A stretch of DNA of 23,179 bases from a virus (IMGVR_UViG_3300025616_000042:1-23179), one strand, 5' to 3'. Positions 15,635-21,933 are shown, numbered from the stretch's first letter. Translations and numbers: made by a program. The notes: generated from the letters alone by a model not told the origin.

Positions 15635-15695
15635 ATAATATGCTTTATATCACAGAAGCATTGGGCTTGTAAACATTATTTTTATAATAGTTTAC

Positions 15696-15707
15696 GCATG
15701 TACATGC
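15696..15707. promoter_or_regulatory. 12-bp perfect palindrome GCATGTACATGC, possible operator
   Basis: Perfect dyad located in the presumed leader of the terminase operon, about 26 bp downstream of the leftward -10 box. It contains TGTACA, the same hexamer used as -35 in the phage promoters. Operator function is inferred. Confidence 0.35.
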
Positions 15708-15732
15708 TATTGTGCAGGTTTGCAACTCAATT

Positions 15733-15761
15733 ATTAAATTTTCCCTGTTAATTTGTGTACA
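15733..15761 (-). promoter_or_regulatory. Leftward promoter candidate for the late (terminase-to-tail) operon
   Basis: On the minus strand, TGTACA (15761-15756), a 17-bp spacer and TTTAAT (15738-15733). The -35 hexamer and spacing equal those of the three early promoters at 18109, 19095 and 21182, but the spacer lacks the GTACTTAGTAC palindrome. It is placed about 100 nt upstream of TerS. Confidence 0.5.
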
Positions 15762-15790
15762 GAAACGCAACTGATGTTTCAAAATTTCCT

Positions 15791-15803
15791 GGCACTTAGT
15801 GCC
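15791..15803. promoter_or_regulatory. Palindrome GGCACTTAGTGCC (ACTTAG-type site)
   Basis: Perfect dyad around a central base, sharing the CACTTAGTG core with 16676-16686 and closely related to the GTACTTAGTAC sites in the early promoters. It could be a binding site for the same phage regulator. Confidence 0.4.
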
Positions 15804-15923
15804 TCATAAGGCCCCAGCCCTCCTCCCGTTTACCTCCCCACCCGGGGCTAGGATTCCAAGCTCGTGGAACGTGGCACGAAAACAAGGCGATCCTTCCAAC
15901 CTAAGTGGGAACGCACTTGGAAT
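15804..15923. other. GC-rich, hairpin-dense island of unknown role
   Basis: Noticeably richer in G+C than its flanks. Contains GCCCC (15811) pairing with GGGGC (15844); TCGTG (15862) with CACGA (15875); AAGTG (15903) with CACTT (15914); and long-range arms ATTCCAAG (15853-15860) and CTTGGAAT (15916-15923). The only open frame across it (GTG at 15799) has no ribosome site. A packaging site (cos/pac) next to the terminase genes or a structured RNA are the main possibilities. Confidence 0.4.
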
Positions 15924-16054
15924 TTATTTTCATTGGGCTATGTACTTAGTTCGCAATTCATGTTATACGTGTGTGCATGTTCTTTATATATGCTCTGATC
16001 TTTTTGCTTGATAGGTAAAACGTATTGATCCAACTCTATTGATTGATAAATAAT

Positions 16055-16083
16055 CTGCACAACATTATTCATTGCGATATAAT
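16055..16083 (+). promoter_or_regulatory. Promoter candidate for the 121-aa gene
   Basis: TATAAT at 16078-16083 preceded, with 17 bp, by CTGCAC (a poor -35). With one base less spacing the hexamer is TGCACA, similar to TGTACA. The -10 box is perfect; the -35 box is weak, suggesting dependence on an activator or low activity. Confidence 0.45.
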
Positions 16084-16131
16084 AACTCATCCAATCAATA
16101 TTTGATTGTGACTTAACTCTTGGAGATTATC

Positions 16132-16497
16132 ATGAACTTAGCAACATTAGTAACAACAGCAACAACCCCAGTAGCACCAGTGCGCACGATCAAAGAACTT
16201 CGTGCAGAGCTTAAAGAAAAGAGTGGTGCCCCAGTAAGTCCTAAGATGACAATGGCGGAGATAATTCTGGCCCTAAGTAAAGTGGAAGAGGTTCCTCAGT
16301 TGGATGATGTAAATGTTGTAATAAAAGTTAAGCCTTCAAAACCTCAAGGAATTGGTGCTAAGATCTTGGAACTTTTGAAAGCTGGGACAACTCCTAAAGA
16401 AACTCTTGAGACAATTCAAGCGACCTTTGAGGGGTGCAAAACAACAATGGCATGTGTCTACTGGTACAAATCAAAAATCAATCAAGGTTTGATGTAA
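16132..16497 (+). CDS. Small phage protein with possible HTH-like C-terminus, candidate regulator, 121 aa
   Basis: Start ATG at 16132 has TTGGAGATTATC upstream. Residues 1-20 are Thr/Ala-rich; 21-52 a charged helix pair (IKELRAELKEKSGAPVS, MTMAEIILALSKVEEV). The C-terminal half (about 73-119) contains GIGAKILELLKAG, TTPKETLETIQATFEGCKTT and ACVYWYKSKINQG. This resembles a small DNA-binding-like module found in phages and plasmids, with the 'G.T..E.L..........KTT...V.WY.S..' pattern; I infer an HTH-type fold. It stands alone between two intergenic regions that are rich in ACTTAG palindromes, with its own promoter and a strong terminator, a layout typical of a regulator. DNA binding has not been shown. 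Confidence 0.65.
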   Translation: MNLATLVTTATTPVAPVRTIKELRAELKEKSGAPVSPKMTMAEIILALSKVEEVPQLDDVNVVIKVKPSKPQGIGAKILELLKAGTTPKETLETIQATFEGCKTTMACVYWYKSKINQGLM

Positions 16498-16517
16498 GTC
16501 CTAAGCTTGTAGCACCC

Positions 16518-16540
16518 ACCTCCTTCGGGAGGTTTTTTTT
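16518..16540 (+). terminator. Rho-independent terminator after the 121-aa gene
   Basis: Perfect 6-bp stem ACCTCC / GGAGGT with a TTCG tetraloop closed by C-G, immediately followed by eight T. Lies 20 nt after the stop codon. The clearest terminator in the window. Confidence 0.95.
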
Positions 16541-16675
16541 CGCCCAGATTTAGGGGTAAGTACTTAGTTTGGGGTCCTACGAGCAATTATTTTAAGTCAG
16601 TTGATACTAGCCTATAGGCTTTGCGTTTTGTGCGTCTACGTGCTTACAACGATCGCCGAGGACGTGTGTTTGCAT

Positions 16676-16686
16676 GCACTTAGTGC
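16676..16686. promoter_or_regulatory. Palindrome GCACTTAGTGC (ACTTAG-type site)
   Basis: Perfect 11-bp dyad with central T, sharing the core with 15791-15803 and the promoter-embedded sites at 18117 and 21190. A near copy GCACTTAGCAC follows at 16713-16723. Operator role is inferred. Confidence 0.4.
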
Positions 16687-16849
16687 TGAGTTTCGCCCTC
16701 TTTTTGGACGTCGCACTTAGCACCTTGACCAGCCAACCCATGCTTTTTCCAATATTACACAGAAACTTAGAACTCAATCAAATAGCCTTTGGTTTCAGAT
16801 CCGACCATTTTGGGAGCAATCTAATCATGCACTTAGGCGACGGAGAACA

Positions 16850-16906
16850 ATGAAACACAAAATAAAGACGTGCAAAGGGCGTGTTGTAACAGTAAAAAAG
16901 CATTAA
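16850..16906 (+). CDS. Possible 18-aa basic microprotein
   Basis: ATG at 16850 is preceded by CGGAGAACA, a good ribosome site, and the frame closes with TAA at 16904-16906. The peptide MKHKIKTCKGRVVTVKKH is strongly basic with one Cys. An 8-codon frame from 16827 ends in an ATGA overlap with this start, resembling a leader-coupled pair. No promoter is evident. Such a short frame can occur by chance; the only positive evidence is the ribosome site and the composition. Confidence 0.3.
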   Translation: MKHKIKTCKGRVVTVKKH

Positions 16907-16909
16907 GAA

Positions 16910-16921
16910 CTAAGTACTTAG
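16910..16921. promoter_or_regulatory. Palindrome CTAAGTACTTAG
   Basis: Perfect 12-bp dyad built from two overlapping GTACTTAG-type half sites, at the left edge of the AT-rich tract. Related to the operator-like sequences in the promoters at 18109 and 21182. Confidence 0.4.
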
Positions 16922-16999
16922 ATCATATATATAACAATAGATTCAATATATATATATAAATATAAAAATAAAAATACAAGAAAAAAAAAAAGAAAAAAG
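16922..16999. other. AT-rich tract with AT dinucleotide run and A-rich strand
   Basis: Nearly all A and T, with an (AT)n run near 16945-16957 and an A run interrupted by single G residues from about 16979. No coding frame. Could serve as a DNA-unwinding element or an UP-element-like region. It may also be a site prone to assembly errors. Confidence 0.5.
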
Positions 17000-17038
17000 C
17001 TCGTAGGATCGTAGGTCTATATGACTTTAAAACGAGAT

Positions 17039-17106
17039 ATTCTGTTCTTGTGTTCCGGGTGCTAAGTTTTTAGTTCTAAATCAATCGCTTATCTCCGGAA
17101 CAGAAT
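17039..17106 (+). other. Bulged long-range hairpin, possible structured RNA
   Basis: The 12-nt arm CCGGAACAGAAT (17095-17106) pairs completely with two pieces on the left: ATTCTG (17039-17044) and TTCCGG (17053-17058), separated by an 8-nt bulge. The 36-nt loop holds a further small inverted repeat (CTAA...TTAG). No function recognised. Confidence 0.35.
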
Positions 17107-17154
17107 AACTGATTATTCAATCTCAAATCATGTTATGCTTATTTTTTAAGCATA

Positions 17155-17202
17155 TTAACGCATTTCTTAGTCGCGATCTTTTGCAAAAAGGTTAACGCAT
17201 TT
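17155..17202. repeat. Two direct copies of TTAACGCATTT
   Basis: Copies at 17155-17165 and 17192-17202, 37 bp apart start to start, directly after a 7-bp hairpin with a T5 loop (ATGCTTA/TAAGCAT, 17135-17153). They may be iteron-like or regulator sites upstream of the AP2 gene. Confidence 0.45.
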
Positions 17203-17274
17203 TGTGTTTTTGATCTATTTTTGGTGCCTATTCGATAGCAAAATAGCGCAATAGACGTGCTAAGAAAATCGCGT

Positions 17275-17303
17275 TTTACTTGAAAGACCTTACAGCATAT
17301 AAT
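17275..17303 (+). promoter_or_regulatory. Promoter of the AP2-domain gene
   Basis: TTTACT (17275-17280), 17 bp, then a consensus TATAAT (17298-17303), 30 bp before the start codon. Contains no ACTTAG palindrome, so it may be controlled differently from the downstream operons. Confidence 0.6.
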
Positions 17304-17333
17304 GTGTGTTCTTATTACTAAAAGGATTTTCCA

Positions 17334-18017
17334 ATGACAATGATTGACAACTTAATATATGGTCTTGCCAGGAAGGAAGAATATCTTAAGGCTGAGGCGT
17401 GCATCCCTAAGGTTTCAAAAAATAGTACTAGTGGCCATACAGGTGTTTCATACTATCCACGAACTAACTGCTGGCGAGTAACCTATCGGGGTAAACATAG
17501 AGGCTTTTTCCCTACCATTGAGGAGGCCGTGATCGGACGTGCTAAGATCGTAGCGTGCGCCCCTAAGAAAGCGCGTAAGCCACGCAAACTCACTACCGGG
17601 CAACAAAAGGTCTACACCTCCATGCATGCTGAGCACCAAGTGCTAAGAGCGAGGTACCGCAAACTGCTAGCCCAGCCTGTTTCCCTCTCCTCTGAGGCCC
17701 GTAGTGCCTTTAATGCAGAGTACGAAGCGATCCGACTAAAGCACTATCCTCAAATAACCCATGCGCCGCAAGATCTCTCCTCATGGGAGGCAAGGCGCAT
17801 TGCCTTTAAAGAAGAGCATGAGCTAAAAACATTGCCACTAGCGAAGGAGCTGTTCATTCCTAAGTATCTAGGACTCAGTGCTAAGGGCCAAGTTGCCCAG
17901 CTCAGAAGTCAATATCGCCAAGAGATTACCGATCCTTCCCTTAGCGACGCTGAGCGCAAGCATCTACGTAAGCTATTGTCCTTCCACATAGCAAGGGTAA
18001 TGGCACCAGTGTTTTGA
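17334..18017 (+). CDS. AP2/ERF-like DNA-binding domain protein, 227 aa
   Basis: ATG follows AAAAGGATTTTCCA. Residues about 30-72 form an AP2-type domain: NSTSGHTGVSYYPRTNCWRV, then TYRGKHRGFFPTIEEAV, the three-strand plus helix pattern seen in phage AP2 proteins. In phages this domain usually sits at the C-terminus of HNH homing endonucleases. Here it is N-terminal, and the remaining 150 residues are basic and helical (RKPRKLTTGQQKV, AEHQVLRARYRKLLAQ, SDAERKHLRKLLSFHIAR) without an HNH motif that I can see. It may be a DNA-binding regulator or a remnant of a mobile gene. It has its own promoter and is followed by a long hairpin at 18027. Confidence 0.7.
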   Translation: MTMIDNLIYGLARKEEYLKAEACIPKVSKNSTSGHTGVSYYPRTNCWRVTYRGKHRGFFPTIEEAVIGRAKIVACAPKKARKPRKLTTGQQKVYTSMHAEHQVLRARYRKLLAQPVSLSSEARSAFNAEYEAIRLKHYPQITHAPQDLSSWEARRIAFKEEHELKTLPLAKELFIPKYLGLSAKGQVAQLRSQYRQEITDPSLSDAERKHLRKLLSFHIARVMAPVF

Positions 18018-18090: not shown

Positions 18091-18108
18091 TGAGTGGGCA
18101 AAGTAATG

Positions 18109-18137
18109 TGTACAAAGTACTTAGTACGACGTAATAT
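18109..18137 (+). promoter_or_regulatory. Early promoter 1 with operator palindrome in the spacer
   Basis: TGTACA (18109-18114), 17 bp, TAATAT (18132-18137). The spacer contains the perfect palindrome GTACTTAGTAC at 18117-18127. A 28-bp block starting at 18101 is identical to the one upstream of promoter 3. It drives the 18181-19073 operon. A protein on the palindrome would sit between -35 and -10 and block RNA polymerase. Confidence 0.75.
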
Positions 18138-18146
18138 AGACACATC

Positions 18147-18170
18147 GCGCTGACAACTGCGCTGACAACT
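18147..18170 (+). repeat. Tandem 12-bp repeat in the leader of the 18181 gene
   Basis: GCGCTGACAACT occurs twice head to tail (18147-18158 and 18159-18170), followed directly by the GGAGAG ribosome site. The GCTGACAACT string recurs once in the leader of the gene at 19188 next to its GGAG, suggesting a conserved leader element. Confidence 0.7.
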
Positions 18171-18180
18171 GGAGAGTATC

Positions 18181-18429
18181 ATGAGTAATATAGTATGGCT
18201 GGCCAAAATGGACACTGTAAATTTTGCATTTTCAGCATATAGCGCTACCAAAGAAGGCGCGGTCTTTGCGCTTCAACAAGGGCTGGCAAATCATGCACGT
18301 AAGTTTAATCTGCCCGAAGACTGGTATGACTTAGACGGTGATGTCGTCTGTGATGTATTTACGCTAGGTAATGCGTACCGTTACGGTTGGGACGACCCTA
18401 TCTACGTTTATGCACCGAAGGAGAGCTAA
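18181..18429 (+). CDS. Small hypothetical phage protein, 82 aa
   Basis: ATG is preceded by GGAGAGTATC. The protein begins MSNIVWLAKMDTVNFAFSAY and contains ATKEGAVFALQQGLANHARK, then an acidic region (LPEDWYDLDGDVVCDVFTLG) and ends YGWDDPIYVYAPKES. The middle looks like one helix flanked by strands. I do not recognise the family. It is the first gene of the operon from promoter 1, one base before the MGYTHY-family gene. Confidence 0.6.
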   Translation: MSNIVWLAKMDTVNFAFSAYSATKEGAVFALQQGLANHARKFNLPEDWYDLDGDVVCDVFTLGNAYRYGWDDPIYVYAPKES

Positions 18430-18430
18430 C

Positions 18431-18838
18431 ATGGGCTACACACATTATTTTATGCTAAAGAAAACACCACCGAAAGAAGTCTGGGACCAGGTGCTTGAGG
18501 CTAAGAATGAGATTGTGCGCTTTGCTGAGGTAGGCTATGGTGTTGACGTAATTGACAATAGTCGGGAGGATGTCATTGACATTAATGGCGTTGCCCCCTA
18601 TGACCATGAGAACTTATTGCTCAGTCCTAAGTACCTAGAATTTGAGTTTTGCAAGACTGCCATGAAGCCCTATGACATTGTGGTAACTGCCATACTTTGT
18701 GTGTTAGGTGATTTGTTAGAAGATAATATTGACATTAGCTCTGACGGAGGTGCTAAGTACTGGGAAGCAGGCCAACGCCTAGCAACCGAAGCGCTAGGTG
18801 TGCAGATCAACATACCAAGAGGAGTGCAGCATGGATAA
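18431..18838 (+). CDS. MGYTHY-family conserved phage protein, 135 aa
   Basis: Start chosen at MGYTHYFML, which has AGGAGAGCTAAC upstream and is the conserved beginning of the family; a longer in-frame reading has no support. Conserved blocks: MGYTHYF (1-7), ENLLLSPKYLEFEF then CKTAMKPYDIVVTAILCVLG (75-94), and SSDGGAKYWEAGQRLA (103-118). I recall this pattern (MGYTHYW ... F.FCKTA.KPYD ... SDG....W) from many phage and mobile-element proteins of unknown function, expressed early. The last eight bases overlap the next gene. Confidence 0.75.
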   Translation: MGYTHYFMLKKTPPKEVWDQVLEAKNEIVRFAEVGYGVDVIDNSREDVIDINGVAPYDHENLLLSPKYLEFEFCKTAMKPYDIVVTAILCVLGDLLEDNIDISSDGGAKYWEAGQRLATEALGVQINIPRGVQHG

Positions 18839-19073
18839 TTCAATCAACACAGTTATTCTAAATGGCAAGCGCGTTGCCTACCATACCACCACGGAGTTCC
18901 TAGTGCAAGTAGGACTTGGATCTAAAGGTGCGTACAAGACAAGGTACAGCTTTGTCGGGAACCTGACACAAGCTTTGTTATACTATCAAAGCATCAACAT
19001 CGGTCGCGGTTATAAAAAGCGCCTGTTGGCCCCATCGATGAACCGCCCCTTGTTAGCCAGAGCGTTTAGCTAA
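18831..19073 (+). CDS. Conserved phage protein, 80 aa
   Basis: ATG at 18831 has AAGAGGAGTGCAGC upstream, inside the end of the preceding gene. The protein includes LNGKRVAYHTTTEFLVQVGL, GSKGAYKTRYSFVGNLTQAL and INIGRGYKKRLLAPSMNRP, ending ARAFS. I recall this 'NGKRVAY.T...F..Q.G.GSKG.Y.TRYS..GNL.QA' family from several proteobacterial phages, with no known role. It is basic and probably cytoplasmic. Last gene of the first early operon. Confidence 0.7.
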   Translation: MDNSINTVILNGKRVAYHTTTEFLVQVGLGSKGAYKTRYSFVGNLTQALLYYQSINIGRGYKKRLLAPSMNRPLLARAFS

Positions 19074-19094
19074 CTCAGGCTGGTGTAAATAACG

Positions 19095-19123
19095 TGTACA
19101 AATTACTGCGTACGACGTATTAT
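19095..19123 (+). promoter_or_regulatory. Early promoter 2 (degenerate operator)
   Basis: TGTACA (19095-19100), 17 bp, TATTAT (19118-19123). The spacer aligns with promoters 1 and 3, but the palindrome is disrupted (ATTACTGCGTAC). Drives the 19188-20575 genes. It may respond more weakly to the putative repressor. Confidence 0.7.
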
Positions 19124-19141
19124 TATATATCGCATCAATAA

Positions 19142-19159
19142 ACACAGCAACCGCTGTGT
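19142..19159 (+). other. Leader hairpin before the 19188 gene
   Basis: Perfect 7-bp stem ACACAGC / GCTGTGT with an AACC loop, between promoter 2 and the ribosome site. Followed by GCTGACAACT and AGGAG, as in the promoter 1 leader. Likely a 5'-end mRNA stabiliser or translational control element. Confidence 0.6.
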
Positions 19160-19187
19160 CTGGTGCTGACAACTTAGGAGAATTAAA

Positions 19188-19583
19188 ATGTCCGATCTTA
19201 TTATTGGCAATGACGTAATTGAGGGTGTGGTAGCAGAGCAAGCTGAAATAGTGTTACCTACCTATGACCAACTGTATGCAGACTTTCAACAGTCTAAAGT
19301 GCTGCATGCAAATACTCTTGTACGTGAGAAACTATTGCAAGAGGCCCTAACTGCGGCCAAAAGCTTAAGCCTTGAAGATAGGCTGCAACAAATAATTGAA
19401 GATGCGGTGGAAGAAGCGATCAACAATGTGCTAGAAGCTGCAGTTGAAGAAGCTGTGGAAGATGCGATGCGCACTAATAGTGACGAAATCGATGACAGGA
19501 TCGAACGTTACCTTGACAATAATCTTGAAGATGCTGTGACCAGCACCGTGCGAGATATGTCTTTCTCTGTTCACGTAGACTAG
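19188..19583 (+). CDS. Acidic coiled-coil phage protein, 131 aa
   Basis: ATG follows TTAGGAGAATTAAA. Residues 45-130 are a long, very acidic helical stretch with Ala/Val/Ile heptads (LQQIIEDAVEEAINNVLEAA, VEEAVEDAMRTNSDEIDDRI, ERYLDNNLEDAVTSTVRD). The N-terminal 40 residues are mixed (MSDLIIGNDVIEGVVAEQAE). No family is recognised with certainty. Such acidic coils could be inhibitors that mimic DNA or structural spacers, but nothing here proves either. It is first in the operon with the DUF932 gene 11 nt downstream. Confidence 0.6.
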   Translation: MSDLIIGNDVIEGVVAEQAEIVLPTYDQLYADFQQSKVLHANTLVREKLLQEALTAAKSLSLEDRLQQIIEDAVEEAINNVLEAAVEEAVEDAMRTNSDEIDDRIERYLDNNLEDAVTSTVRDMSFSVHVD

Positions 19584-19594
19584 GAGCTAAGATC

Positions 19595-20575
19595 ATGGCA
19601 CATGAAATCGCAACAATGGTAGACGGCCGAAGTGCAATGGCCTATGTTGGTGATGATCGGCCTTGGCACGGCCTCGGTCAGCAGTTAACAGTAGGCGCTA
19701 GTATTGAAACTTGGGCTGAGCAAGCAGGCTTAAATTTTACAATAGCTGGTAGCCCTGTCTTGTATCAAACGCCGCAAGGCCTAGAAGCACAAGGCTCTAA
19801 GCAAGTACTATACCGCACCGATACAGGTATTCCATTAGGTGTAGTAGGCAATAAGTATCAAGTAGTCCAACCAATTGAAATACTAGAGTTCTTTCGAGAG
19901 CTTGTAGCAGAGCAAGGCTTTGAGCTTGAAACTGCGGGTGTATTATTTGGCGGCTCAAAAGTATGGGCCTTAGCACGTACAGGACAAAGTGCTAAGATTG
20001 GTGAAAATGATATTCTCAAAGACTACCTACTATTGGCCACTGCTTGTGATGGCACCCTTAAAACAACAGCAAAACGTACAAGCATAAGGACAGTGTGCAA
20101 TAACACATTGAATATAGGCTTAAAAGAGTCTGGAGGCAGTGTTAAAGTAGCACATAGCACTTCATTTAATGCGGCAAGTGTTAAGCAAGACTTAGGCCTT
20201 AAGCCTGAAGACTTTGAGCTATTTGCGGAGCAAGCAAGGCTTCTTGCCAATACACCGCTAACTGACCCCCAAGCAATTGCCTTTGTGCGAGGCTTATTTG
20301 CAGACACTTCTGCTAAAGGCAACCTTCAAACAGGCCGCGTACTTCAATTATATAGTGGTCAAGGCAAAGGTTCAGGCTATACTACCGCCAAAGGTACTGC
20401 ATGGGGTGTGCTGAACGCGTTAACGGAAAACCAAGATTGGCATCAAGGTAAAAACCAAGACCGTAGACTAGAGGCTAGTTGGCTGTATGGTGGGCTTACT
20501 CTTAAGCAAACTGCTATGGATCGCTTATTAGCTTTTGCCAATACAAATGATGAACACGCTTTGATGGTTGCATAG
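19595..20575 (+). CDS. DUF932 / TIGR03299-type phage/plasmid protein, 326 aa
   Basis: Intact. The N-terminal hallmark is MAHEIATMVDGRSAMAYVGD followed by RPWHGLGQQL (residues 23-32), then VLYRTDTGIPLGVVGNKYQV, FGGSKVWALARTG, LLLATACDGTLKTTAKRTSI and RTVCNNTLNIGL. The family (DUF932, TIGR03299 'phage/plasmid-like') is widespread in phages and plasmids; its molecular function is not established. The ribosome site TAGGAGCTAAGATC lies just after the preceding stop. A perfect TATAAT begins one base after the stop codon (20576-20581), without a good -35. Confidence 0.85.
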   Translation: MAHEIATMVDGRSAMAYVGDDRPWHGLGQQLTVGASIETWAEQAGLNFTIAGSPVLYQTPQGLEAQGSKQVLYRTDTGIPLGVVGNKYQVVQPIEILEFFRELVAEQGFELETAGVLFGGSKVWALARTGQSAKIGENDILKDYLLLATACDGTLKTTAKRTSIRTVCNNTLNIGLKESGGSVKVAHSTSFNAASVKQDLGLKPEDFELFAEQARLLANTPLTDPQAIAFVRGLFADTSAKGNLQTGRVLQLYSGQGKGSGYTTAKGTAWGVLNALTENQDWHQGKNQDRRLEASWLYGGLTLKQTAMDRLLAFANTNDEHALMVA

Positions 20576-20580
20576 TATAA

Positions 20581-20620
20581 TTGTGCCATGGCCAACTTAA
20601 AGGAAACTGCCATGGCACAA
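20581..20620 (+). promoter_or_regulatory. 12-bp hairpin locking the start codon of the endonuclease-like gene
   Basis: Perfect arms TTGTGCCATGGC (20581-20592) and GCCATGGCACAA (20609-20620) with a 16-nt loop. The start ATG (20612-20614) lies inside the right arm and the ribosome site AAAGGA (20600-20605) in the loop, so the RNA fold would hide the start from ribosomes on long upstream transcripts. Transcripts starting inside the left arm would not form it. Similar sequestration is known for phage homing endonuclease genes. Confidence 0.75.
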
Positions 20621-21175
20621 GAAATACCACGTGGAACTATACGAAATACTGACAAACGCATGTATTGGAGTACATATAAAGAAATACTAAAGTCAGGCGA
20701 GGTTAAATTACGCCAACTTTGGCTTACTGAAGAGAGCTTTAAAAAACGCCGTGTAGCTAATCGAGAATGTAGTAAAGCCTCTCGTAAGCATAATGCACTA
20801 AAAGATAATGCCCAACATCAACAGCGCAAAAAAGTAGTGCTACAAATACAACAAAAAGCCCAAGCTTTGTATCCCTTGCGCAGGCTGGTAGCTAGTGCAA
20901 AAATACGAGCAACAAAAAAAGGTCTTGCTTTTGATATATGTATTGAAGACTTAATATTGCCGACTGTGTGCCCCCTATTAGGAATACCTTTAGTAAGGGG
21001 CATAAATAAAATATGCGCTGGCTCGCCATCATTAGATAGGAAAGTACCAAGCTTAGGCTATATTAAAGGCAATGTTTGGGTTATATCTTTTAAGGCTAAC
21101 GCAATTAAACAAAATGCAACAATACAAGAGCTTGAATTACTTGTAGCTAATTTAAAGAAGCACCTGGATGCGTAA
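20612..21175 (+). CDS. HNH/His-Me-finger-like phage endonuclease candidate, 187 aa
   Basis: Start taken at 20612 (MAQEIPRG), which has AAAGGA 6 nt upstream; the ATG at 20588 has none. Residues 1-80 are basic and helical, with KRRVANRECSKASRKHNALK. The C-terminal 90 residues match a frequent phage module: LRRLVASAKIRATKKGLAFD, ICIEDLILPTVCPLLGIPLV, SPSLDRKVPSLGYIKGNVWV, ISFKANAIKQNATIQEL. The 'CP.LG...SLDR..P..GY..GNV.VIS..AN..K..AT' pattern corresponds to HNH/endonuclease VII-like folds. The usual DH pair is D-R here, so activity is uncertain. Its start codon lies in a 12-bp hairpin, in keeping with a mobile endonuclease whose expression is held back. Confidence 0.65.
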   Translation: MAQEIPRGTIRNTDKRMYWSTYKEILKSGEVKLRQLWLTEESFKKRRVANRECSKASRKHNALKDNAQHQQRKKVVLQIQQKAQALYPLRRLVASAKIRATKKGLAFDICIEDLILPTVCPLLGIPLVRGINKICAGSPSLDRKVPSLGYIKGNVWVISFKANAIKQNATIQELELLVANLKKHLDA

Positions 21176-21181
21176 GTAATG

Positions 21182-21210
21182 TGTACAAAGTACTTAGTAC
21201 GCAGTATAAT
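21182..21210 (+). promoter_or_regulatory. Early promoter 3 with operator palindrome in the spacer
   Basis: TGTACA (21182-21187), 17 bp, consensus TATAAT (21205-21210), with the perfect palindrome GTACTTAGTAC at 21190-21200. It begins 6 nt after the endonuclease-like gene and drives the 21250-23179 run of small genes. The best consensus match of the three. Confidence 0.8.
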
Positions 21211-21218
21211 AAATTATC

Positions 21219-21231
21219 GTCGTGCAACGAC
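21219..21231 (+). other. Leader hairpin before the 21250 gene
   Basis: Perfect GTCGT / ACGAC stem with GCA loop, followed by CTGACTTAAGGAG. Same placement as the hairpin in the promoter 2 leader. Confidence 0.45.
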
Positions 21232-21249
21232 TGACTTAAGGAGAATGAA

Positions 21250-21426
21250 ATGATTAAGACCCGAGTGCCAGCCCCAGAGCATCAAGTGTGGGCAAGCGTA
21301 ATGCCAATCAAGTATGTGTATACCGAAGCCCTGCTACCTAGGCAAGTGGTAGCTGCGCCTGTCTCACCTATGTGGACGCTGGCTGACGCTGCGTATAATA
21401 CCGCAAGGGGGTGGACCAATGATTGA
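21250..21426 (+). CDS. Small hypothetical phage protein, 58 aa
   Basis: ATG at 21250 has AAGGAGAATGAA upstream; an ATG at 21245 would stop after two codons. The peptide begins MIKTRVPAPEHQVWASVMPI and contains VYTEALLPRQVVAAPVSPMW. It has many Pro and Val and no clear domain. First gene downstream of promoter 3, overlapping the next gene by 8 nt. Not recognised. Confidence 0.6.
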   Translation: MIKTRVPAPEHQVWASVMPIKYVYTEALLPRQVVAAPVSPMWTLADAAYNTARGWTND

Positions 21427-21559
21427 GCTAACCCAACAAATCAACGACCAACTGAACGAGCAGTTGGATGAGATCATCAAACAACTTCAACTTATGCGTG
21501 AAGAGTTTGTAGCACTGGAAGCACGTGCTGCGGCATGGGAGGAAGAATTATGTCATTGA
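21419..21559 (+). CDS. Small coiled-coil phage protein, 46 aa
   Basis: ATG at 21419 has AGGGGGTGG upstream and lies inside the end of the 58-aa gene. The peptide MIELTQQINDQLNEQLDEII, KQLQLMREEFVALEARAAAW ending EEELCH is one amphipathic helix with Leu/Ile heptads, suited to forming a coiled coil. It overlaps the next gene by 10 nt. Function unknown. Confidence 0.6.
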   Translation: MIELTQQINDQLNEQLDEIIKQLQLMREEFVALEARAAAWEEELCH

Positions 21560-21933
21560 TCGAAATAGCTAAGCTTTATAATATAATATCTGCTAAGTTG
21601 CAACATGCGCCTTATGCTTTGAGCATTCGGGAGTTAAATGAAACTCCCGATCTTTCTAGTGAAAGTAACGTACGTATTAGGGATGCCCTAAAGCAACTGC
21701 ATAAAAAAGGCGTTATCCGTAAAGTGCCCGTTAGTTCCCTCAGTGGGAAGGACAAAGTCGGGTATGAGTGGGTTAAGGCAGGGCTGAAGGACGGCGATGT
21801 AATTATCGGACAACCTGTTACCTTAGTTAAGCCCGTAGTGCCAAGTGAGGACATTCGTATTAAAGTGAATGCTGATCAATCTATAACTATTATTACGCGG
21901 TCAATCCGCATTACTGTAGAGGTTCCATTATGA
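21550..21933 (+). CDS. Winged-HTH-like small protein, 127 aa
   Basis: Start at 21550 (MSLIEIAKLYN) has GGGAGGAAGAATT upstream. Residues 1-75 look like a winged helix: LYNIISAKLQHAPYALSIRE, then VRIRDALKQLHKKGVIRKVP as the recognition-type helix and start of the wing, then KVGYEWVKAG. The C-terminal 40 residues are short beta strands (DIRIKVNADQSITIITRSIR). A regulatory DNA-binding role is inferred from the fold pattern. Stop overlaps the next ATG (ATGA). Confidence 0.55.
   Translation: MSLIEIAKLYNIISAKLQHAPYALSIRELNETPDLSSESNVRIRDALKQLHKKGVIRKVPVSSLSGKDKVGYEWVKAGLKDGDVIIGQPVTLVKPVVPSEDIRIKVNADQSITIITRSIRITVEVPL

Follow-up and report, generated by a model that had tools for sequence, protein, structure and literature searches.

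A recurring promoter and hairpin-leader unit at the early operons of a tailed bacteriophage and its relatives

Layout of the phage fragment and its early units

The window, i.e., the whole 23,179-bp stretch analyzed here, is an IMG/VR record that represents a genome fragment of a tailed bacteriophage. Its structural genes occupy the minus strand as far as 15,634; a divergent control region with one early gene inside follows (15,635-17,333), and beyond it lie the plus-strand early genes. The two closest relatives, L004 and L005, encode terminases 91-92% identical to that of the window and share its early gene order, and the terminase of the Roseobacter phages CRP-901/902 shows ~50% identity to the window's. 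L004 was taken from a 51-kb contig, possibly incomplete, which we call the 51-kb relative. The clade sampled is small, essentially two lineages plus fragments, and L004 and L005 are close to each other. When a host or prophage was sought through a terminase search of GTDB genomes, no match was found; the same was true of a blastn search of isolate phages with the P2 region (listed below), and an exact search of IMG/VR for GTGTACAAAGTACTTAGTACG returned only the window's own record.

Four copies of a promoter-plus-leader unit (P1 to P4) could be recognized in the window, and a fifth unit (P5) in L004:

P1 promoter, 16055..16134, plus strand: TGCACA (16056), 16-bp spacer, TATAAT, then ATC
P1 leader, 16092-16108, plus strand: hairpin CAATCAA-TAT-TTGATTG, then TGAC, GGAG and ATG at 16132
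P1 orthologue, L004 6390: TGTACA, 17-bp spacer, TAATAT; hairpin identical to that of P1 in the window
P2 promoter, 18101..18183, plus strand: TGTACA (18109), 17-bp spacer, TAATAT (18132-18137), then ATC
P2 leader, 18147-18162, plus strand: hairpin GCGC-8 nt-GCGC, then TGAC, GGAG and ATG at 18181
P2 orthologues, L004 8540 and L005 8365: in aligned control regions
P3 promoter, 19087..19190, plus strand: TGTACA (19095), 17-bp spacer, TATTAT (19118-19123), then ATC
P3 leader, 19132-19166, plus strand: GCATCA...TGGTGC with inner hairpin ACACAGC-AACC-GCTGTGT, then TGAC, AGGAG and ATG at 19188
P3 orthologue, L004/L005 9565: hairpin GCATCA-ATTT-TGATGC
P4 promoter, 21174..21253, plus strand: TGTACA (21182), 17-bp spacer, TATAAT (21205-21210), then ATC
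P4 leader, 21219-21231, plus strand: hairpin GTCGT-GCA-ACGAC, then TGAC, AAGGAG and ATG at 21251
P4 counterpart, L004 11016: in the same place as P4 of the window
P5, L004 20839: precedes the genes for a 186-aa protein and a thymidylate-synthase-like protein (assigned by eye), and further genes downstream

An earlier, sequence-only reading had described three promoters (18109, 19095 and 21182) with TGTACA in common, a spacer of exactly 17 bp and a TATAAT-like box, which we confirm; it had overlooked the fourth window unit, at 16056, as well as what is more constant in the arrangement, from ATC through the hairpin to TGAC. Each distinct unit follows a common order: -10 box, 5-6 nt, ATC, a 4-7 bp hairpin, TGAC, Shine-Dalgarno sequence and ATG. 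In the window, the copies at P2, P3 and P4 were grouped by a repeat search into one 48-nt family; a simple table of over-represented k-mers was uninformative. The idea of an early regulon with reused control units is supported by the syntenic relatives, in which orthologues stand at the same positions (L004/L005) and five units each head an early operon of the 51-kb relative, the structural genes having none. P5 is also carried by fragments of further relatives.

The promoter elements are tightly constrained. TGTACA is invariant in the clade, with P1 of the window (TGCACA) as the sole exception; the spacer is 17 bp everywhere but in that same copy (16 bp), and the -10 boxes are TAATAT, TATTAT or TATAAT in all units, each having A as its second and T as its sixth base. 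One occurrence of TGTACA-N15-19-TATAAT per 23 kb was reached in only about 4% of shuffled sequences. Similar promoters (TGTACA-17-TATAAT-tactyATCG-like, with no hairpin) turned up in the unrelated contigs L026, L033, L034, L037, L040 and L071, several of which are large and reach 310 kb, and TGTACA may be commoner as a phage -35 element than assumed. When a -10/hairpin/TGAC leader lacking TGTACA was sought in more distant phages (L006, L023, L024 and Roseobacter phage CRP-901), no convincing unit was found.

The control region holds other conserved elements. A strong intrinsic terminator (16518-16533, ACCTCCTTCGGGAGGT followed by T8) lies past the single early gene of P1 and is kept in the relatives. 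A noncoding stretch (16896-17110, GTAACAGTAAAAAAGCATTAAGAACTAAGYACTTAGAT) is strongly conserved; it adjoins an AT-rich tract of 80 bp, has CTAAG/CTTAG palindromes on either side in the window, L004 and L005, and resembles a replication origin. Another promoter, TTTACT-17-TATAAT (17275-17303), with neither TGTACA nor a hairpin, is also present in L004 and L005 and stands ahead of an AP2/HNH-like gene at 17334. The fold predicted for the 122-aa first early protein was of low confidence (pLDDT 56) and was set aside.

A leader hairpin maintained by pairing

Across the units, the stems we observed were CAATCAA/TTGATTG, GCGC/GCGC, GCATCA/TGATGC (or TGGTGC around a second hairpin), GTCGT/ACGAC, GCTG/CAGC and GTCG/CGAC. 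From unit to unit, the stem ranges from 4 to 7 bp, the loop covers 3-8 nt or is replaced by an inner hairpin, and the loop sequence differs as well. According to the predicted folds, the hairpin begins 1-3 nt past ATC, the 5' end being itself a prediction, and in most units TGAC and the Shine-Dalgarno sequence lie downstream and unpaired; the stems are short, and for most units the predicted energy lies between -4.7 and about -8 kcal/mol. In the window, both hairpin arms of the P2 leader are provided by a tandem 12-bp duplication (GCGCTGACAACT, 18147-18170).

A descriptor consisting of the -35 element, a 16-18 spacer, the -10 element, ATC, a stem of at least 4 bp and TGAC gave 13 plausible matches plus one likely false match over 632 kb; 200 Markov-simulated sequences, each 22.6 kb long, contained no match. 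In every unit the hairpin's own arms paired 4/4 in register, whereas arms swapped among six representative units reached 4/4 pairing in only 3 of 30 combinations. Furthermore, an IMG/VR-wide search with the linear motif, in which pairing was not required, retrieved about 20 unrelated viral contigs with stems of 0-2 bp, against 4-7 bp for the units of the clade, meaning that pairing belongs to the units and not to the search. The hairpin is thus preserved by pairing rather than by sequence. No Rfam family matched the leader, the lone hit being a chance miRNA match far under threshold, and in the literature we found no phage leader of this kind beyond the hairpins of T4 gene 32 and phage 7-11.

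Over nine distinct units, the mean information was 1.76 bits for the -35 element, 1.44 bits for the -10 element and 1.19 bits for the ATCG that follows it, compared to 0.82 and 0.66 bits in the spacer and 0.30 bits in the upstream flank. The aligned control regions of the relatives retain the P2 unit but not the 25 bp that precede it. In general, orthologous units retain their architecture while the upstream flanks are only about 45-65% identical between lineages (9-13/20).

Units are also copied within the genome, partly onto one another. The sequence-only reading had pointed to a 28-bp identity, and indeed the block AAGTAATGTGTACAAAGTACTTAGTACG, comprising the -35 element and spacer, is the same at 28/28 positions in P2 (18101-18128) and P4 (21174-21201). 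Unlike this P2-like front half, the -10 box and leader of P4 (cagTATAATnaattATCGTCG...ACGACTGACT) match those of P5 at L004 20839. P4 is therefore a mosaic, and units appear to swap parts within the genome. Between the DUF932 gene and P4, an HNH endonuclease gene is inserted (20588-21175) that is absent from that place in L004 and ends right where the 28-bp block shared with P2 begins. In P5, the spacers of L004 20839 and L032 5828 (minus strand) differ at 5 of 17 positions, clustered, whereas their flanks, leaders and -35 and -10 elements show hardly any differences.

The spacer palindrome and its dispersed relatives

Two of the four window promoters carry a palindrome in the spacer, and similar sites are scattered through the control region:

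GTACTTAGTAC palindrome, 18117..18127: in the P2 spacer, absent from P2 of the relatives; candidate gained operator
GTACTTAGTAC palindrome, 21190..21200: in the P4 spacer; candidate gained operator
GYACTWAGTRC sites, 15792, 15942, 16676, 16713 and 16907 (15792..16917): control region of the window, 5 found against 0.12 expected
Winged-helix protein gene, 21550..21933, plus strand: LexA_DNA_bind-like (Pfam PF01726, E 4.5e-5, just under the gathering score)

As the sequence-only reading had noted, GTACTTAGTAC is present in two spacers, and these (18117-18127 and 21190-21200) are its only exact copies in the window. The orthologous promoters of L004 and L005 have AATTATTGCGTATGACG, AGTTACTTCGTACGACG and AATTACTTTATGCGGTG as spacers, and GTACTTAGTAC is absent from them. 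The majority spacer of the clade is AATTACTTCGTACGACG, from which the P2 spacer of the window differs by two substitutions, both completing the dyad (TTACTTCGTAC to GTACTTAGTAC). The third copy, at 19095, had been regarded as decayed; it is in fact one base away from the majority spacer, from which the palindromic copies differ by at least two.

GTACTTAGTAC also fits a dispersed family of 11-bp palindromes, GYACTWAGTRC, which we counted with up to one mismatch and compared to the expectation from a second-order Markov model. Besides the five sites in the control region, the early genes of the window hold 7 (0.58 expected), and the control regions of L004 and L005 hold 3 and 4, respectively (0.17 and 0.18 expected); elsewhere the counts are at about chance level. 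The motif was generalized after viewing the window, so that L004 and L005, close to each other, represent the test.

Judged from these comparisons, the palindrome seen in P2 and P4 of the window phage is derived and lies outside the conserved core. The original proposal had been a conserved operator between -35 and -10, whose palindrome would persist in relatives while the rest of the spacer drifts and whose strength would be tuned between operons. The TGTACA-17 promoters do occur at the same places in the relatives, but the palindrome is missing from the orthologous spacers of L004 and L005, an outcome that the proposal itself had named as speaking against it, and tuning is not supported. What stands of the operator idea is that GTACTTAGTAC belongs to a binding-site-like repeat set enriched in control regions; at P2 and P4 it may be a newly gained operator for the binder of the dispersed GYACTWAGTRC sites.

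The winged-helix proteins encoded 3' of P4 are candidate DNA-binding regulators. For the one at 21550..21933, the AlphaFold model has a wHTH arrangement (pLDDT 70), and the top Foldseek matches are winged-helix proteins, with E values of about 0.01-0.1. As a marker or obvious partner of the units this protein was rejected, being present in phages that have no units.

These data bear on a narrowed form of the original proposal, in which a phage protein would bind GYACTWAGTRC in the divergent control region and, in the window phage, also the P2 and P4 spacers, blocking RNA polymerase at those two promoters. The enrichment of the motif in the three control regions and the early genes of the window, the dyad-completing substitutions in P2 and the nearby winged-helix genes would fit such a scheme. 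We nevertheless consider it a possible but rather unlikely account of the units, given that the spacers of the relatives all lack the palindrome, that the P5 spacers of two relatives have diverged within near-identical flanks, that the winged-helix protein also occurs apart from the units, and that a motif defined on the window was tested on two mutually close genomes.

Proposed function and comparison with known systems

The reading that we prefer, with some confidence, is that the early operons of this phage and its relatives share a modular unit, in which a fixed-spacing promoter of the host-sigma70 type is joined to an mRNA-stabilizing 5' hairpin leader and a ribosome-binding site. Host RNA polymerase with a sigma70-type factor would start early transcription at the TGTACA -35, 17-bp spacer and TANNNT -10, presumably at about the A of ATC. 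The RNA would then have 2-3 unpaired bases at its 5' end, followed in turn by a stem-loop of 4-7 bp, UGAC, the Shine-Dalgarno sequence and the start codon. The 5'-terminal stem-loop would shield early mRNA from 5'-end-dependent decay and keep the ribosome-binding site accessible at a set position, so that several operons would have the same strong early output. The short hairpins might instead act on the initiation of translation and not on decay. A non-exhaustive scan of early proteins with Pfam and PHROGs revealed neither an RNA polymerase nor a sigma gene, and no single-subunit RNA polymerase was seen when the 51-kb relative, whose contig may be incomplete, was examined through its ORFs and with Pfam.

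Since TGTACA matches TTGACA at only 4/6 positions, a phage activator could be needed. In its full form, this idea makes the units middle-type promoters, an early phage activator on TGTACA and the spacer replacing sigma70 region 4 while the host -10 is kept, as in the T4 arrangement (PMC2988021). The near-invariance of so poor a -35 match, and spacer information (mean 0.7-0.8 bits) above that of the upstream flank (0.3), speak for it; yet TGTACA-17-TATAAT in unrelated phage contigs fits an ordinary -35, the P1 and P5 spacers depart strongly, and no MotA or AsiA homologue was seen among the part of the proteins scanned (Pfam, PHROGs). We find it unlikely.

Another option is that a phage protein, RNA-binding or involved in antitermination, recognizes the hairpin and TGAC as a boxB-like site. 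Their fixed place in every unit and the constant TGAC past the hairpin would suit a binding site, but the variation in stem length, loop length and loop sequence, together with the lack of an Rfam family match, makes it improbable. Finally, recent neutral duplication, with nothing past -35 and -10 under selection, is already disfavored and highly improbable: the P2/P4 identity and the mosaic joins show that copying occurs, but the architecture is kept between lineages whose flanks have diverged, and hairpins that differ in sequence always pair.

Returning to the modular unit, a more ambitious version, which we put forward quite tentatively, would have an interchangeable promoter-plus-hairpin-leader serve most early transcription, its modules recombining between operons, and control by a protein of dispersed sites being gained through two spacer substitutions and spread by intragenomic copying. 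The units amount to a compact, reusable expression element (promoter, 5' hairpin, ribosome-binding site) in a phage with no recognized RNA polymerase of its own, and offer a clear example of a leader hairpin maintained via pairing instead of sequence. The promoters with and without the palindrome constitute a natural contrast for how spacer operators arise.

Among known systems, the mycobacteriophage stoperators (PMC9283540) are likewise short motifs dispersed in a phage genome, with some copies over promoters; the sites here differ in that they are palindromic and lie mostly within a single control region, and we identified no immunity repressor. T4 middle promoters, built from a MotA box and the host -10, are similar in that a strongly conserved box departing from consensus lies upstream of a host-like -10; here the box sequence is unrelated, in addition to the missing MotA/AsiA homologues among scanned proteins. 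T4 early promoters belong to the host sigma70 class and have additional consensus regions (PMC2988021); like our units, whose sigma70 character is putative, they occur in several copies over early operons, with sigma70-type elements and conserved sequence outside -35 and -10, whereas our units have a TGTACA -35, no TGn element and a hairpin leader within the repeat. As to that leader, 5'-terminal stem-loops stabilize E. coli mRNAs (reviewed in PMC3997798), and a stabilizing 5' hairpin is attributed to the T4 gene 32 leader in work cited in PMC8948821. The ompA and papA mRNAs of E. coli and the gene 32 leader resemble our units in having a stem-loop by the 5' end (a predicted end in our case), just 5' of the Shine-Dalgarno sequence; in our phages, by contrast, such a hairpin, putatively stabilizing, is the standard leader of five operons, with arm sequences that vary.
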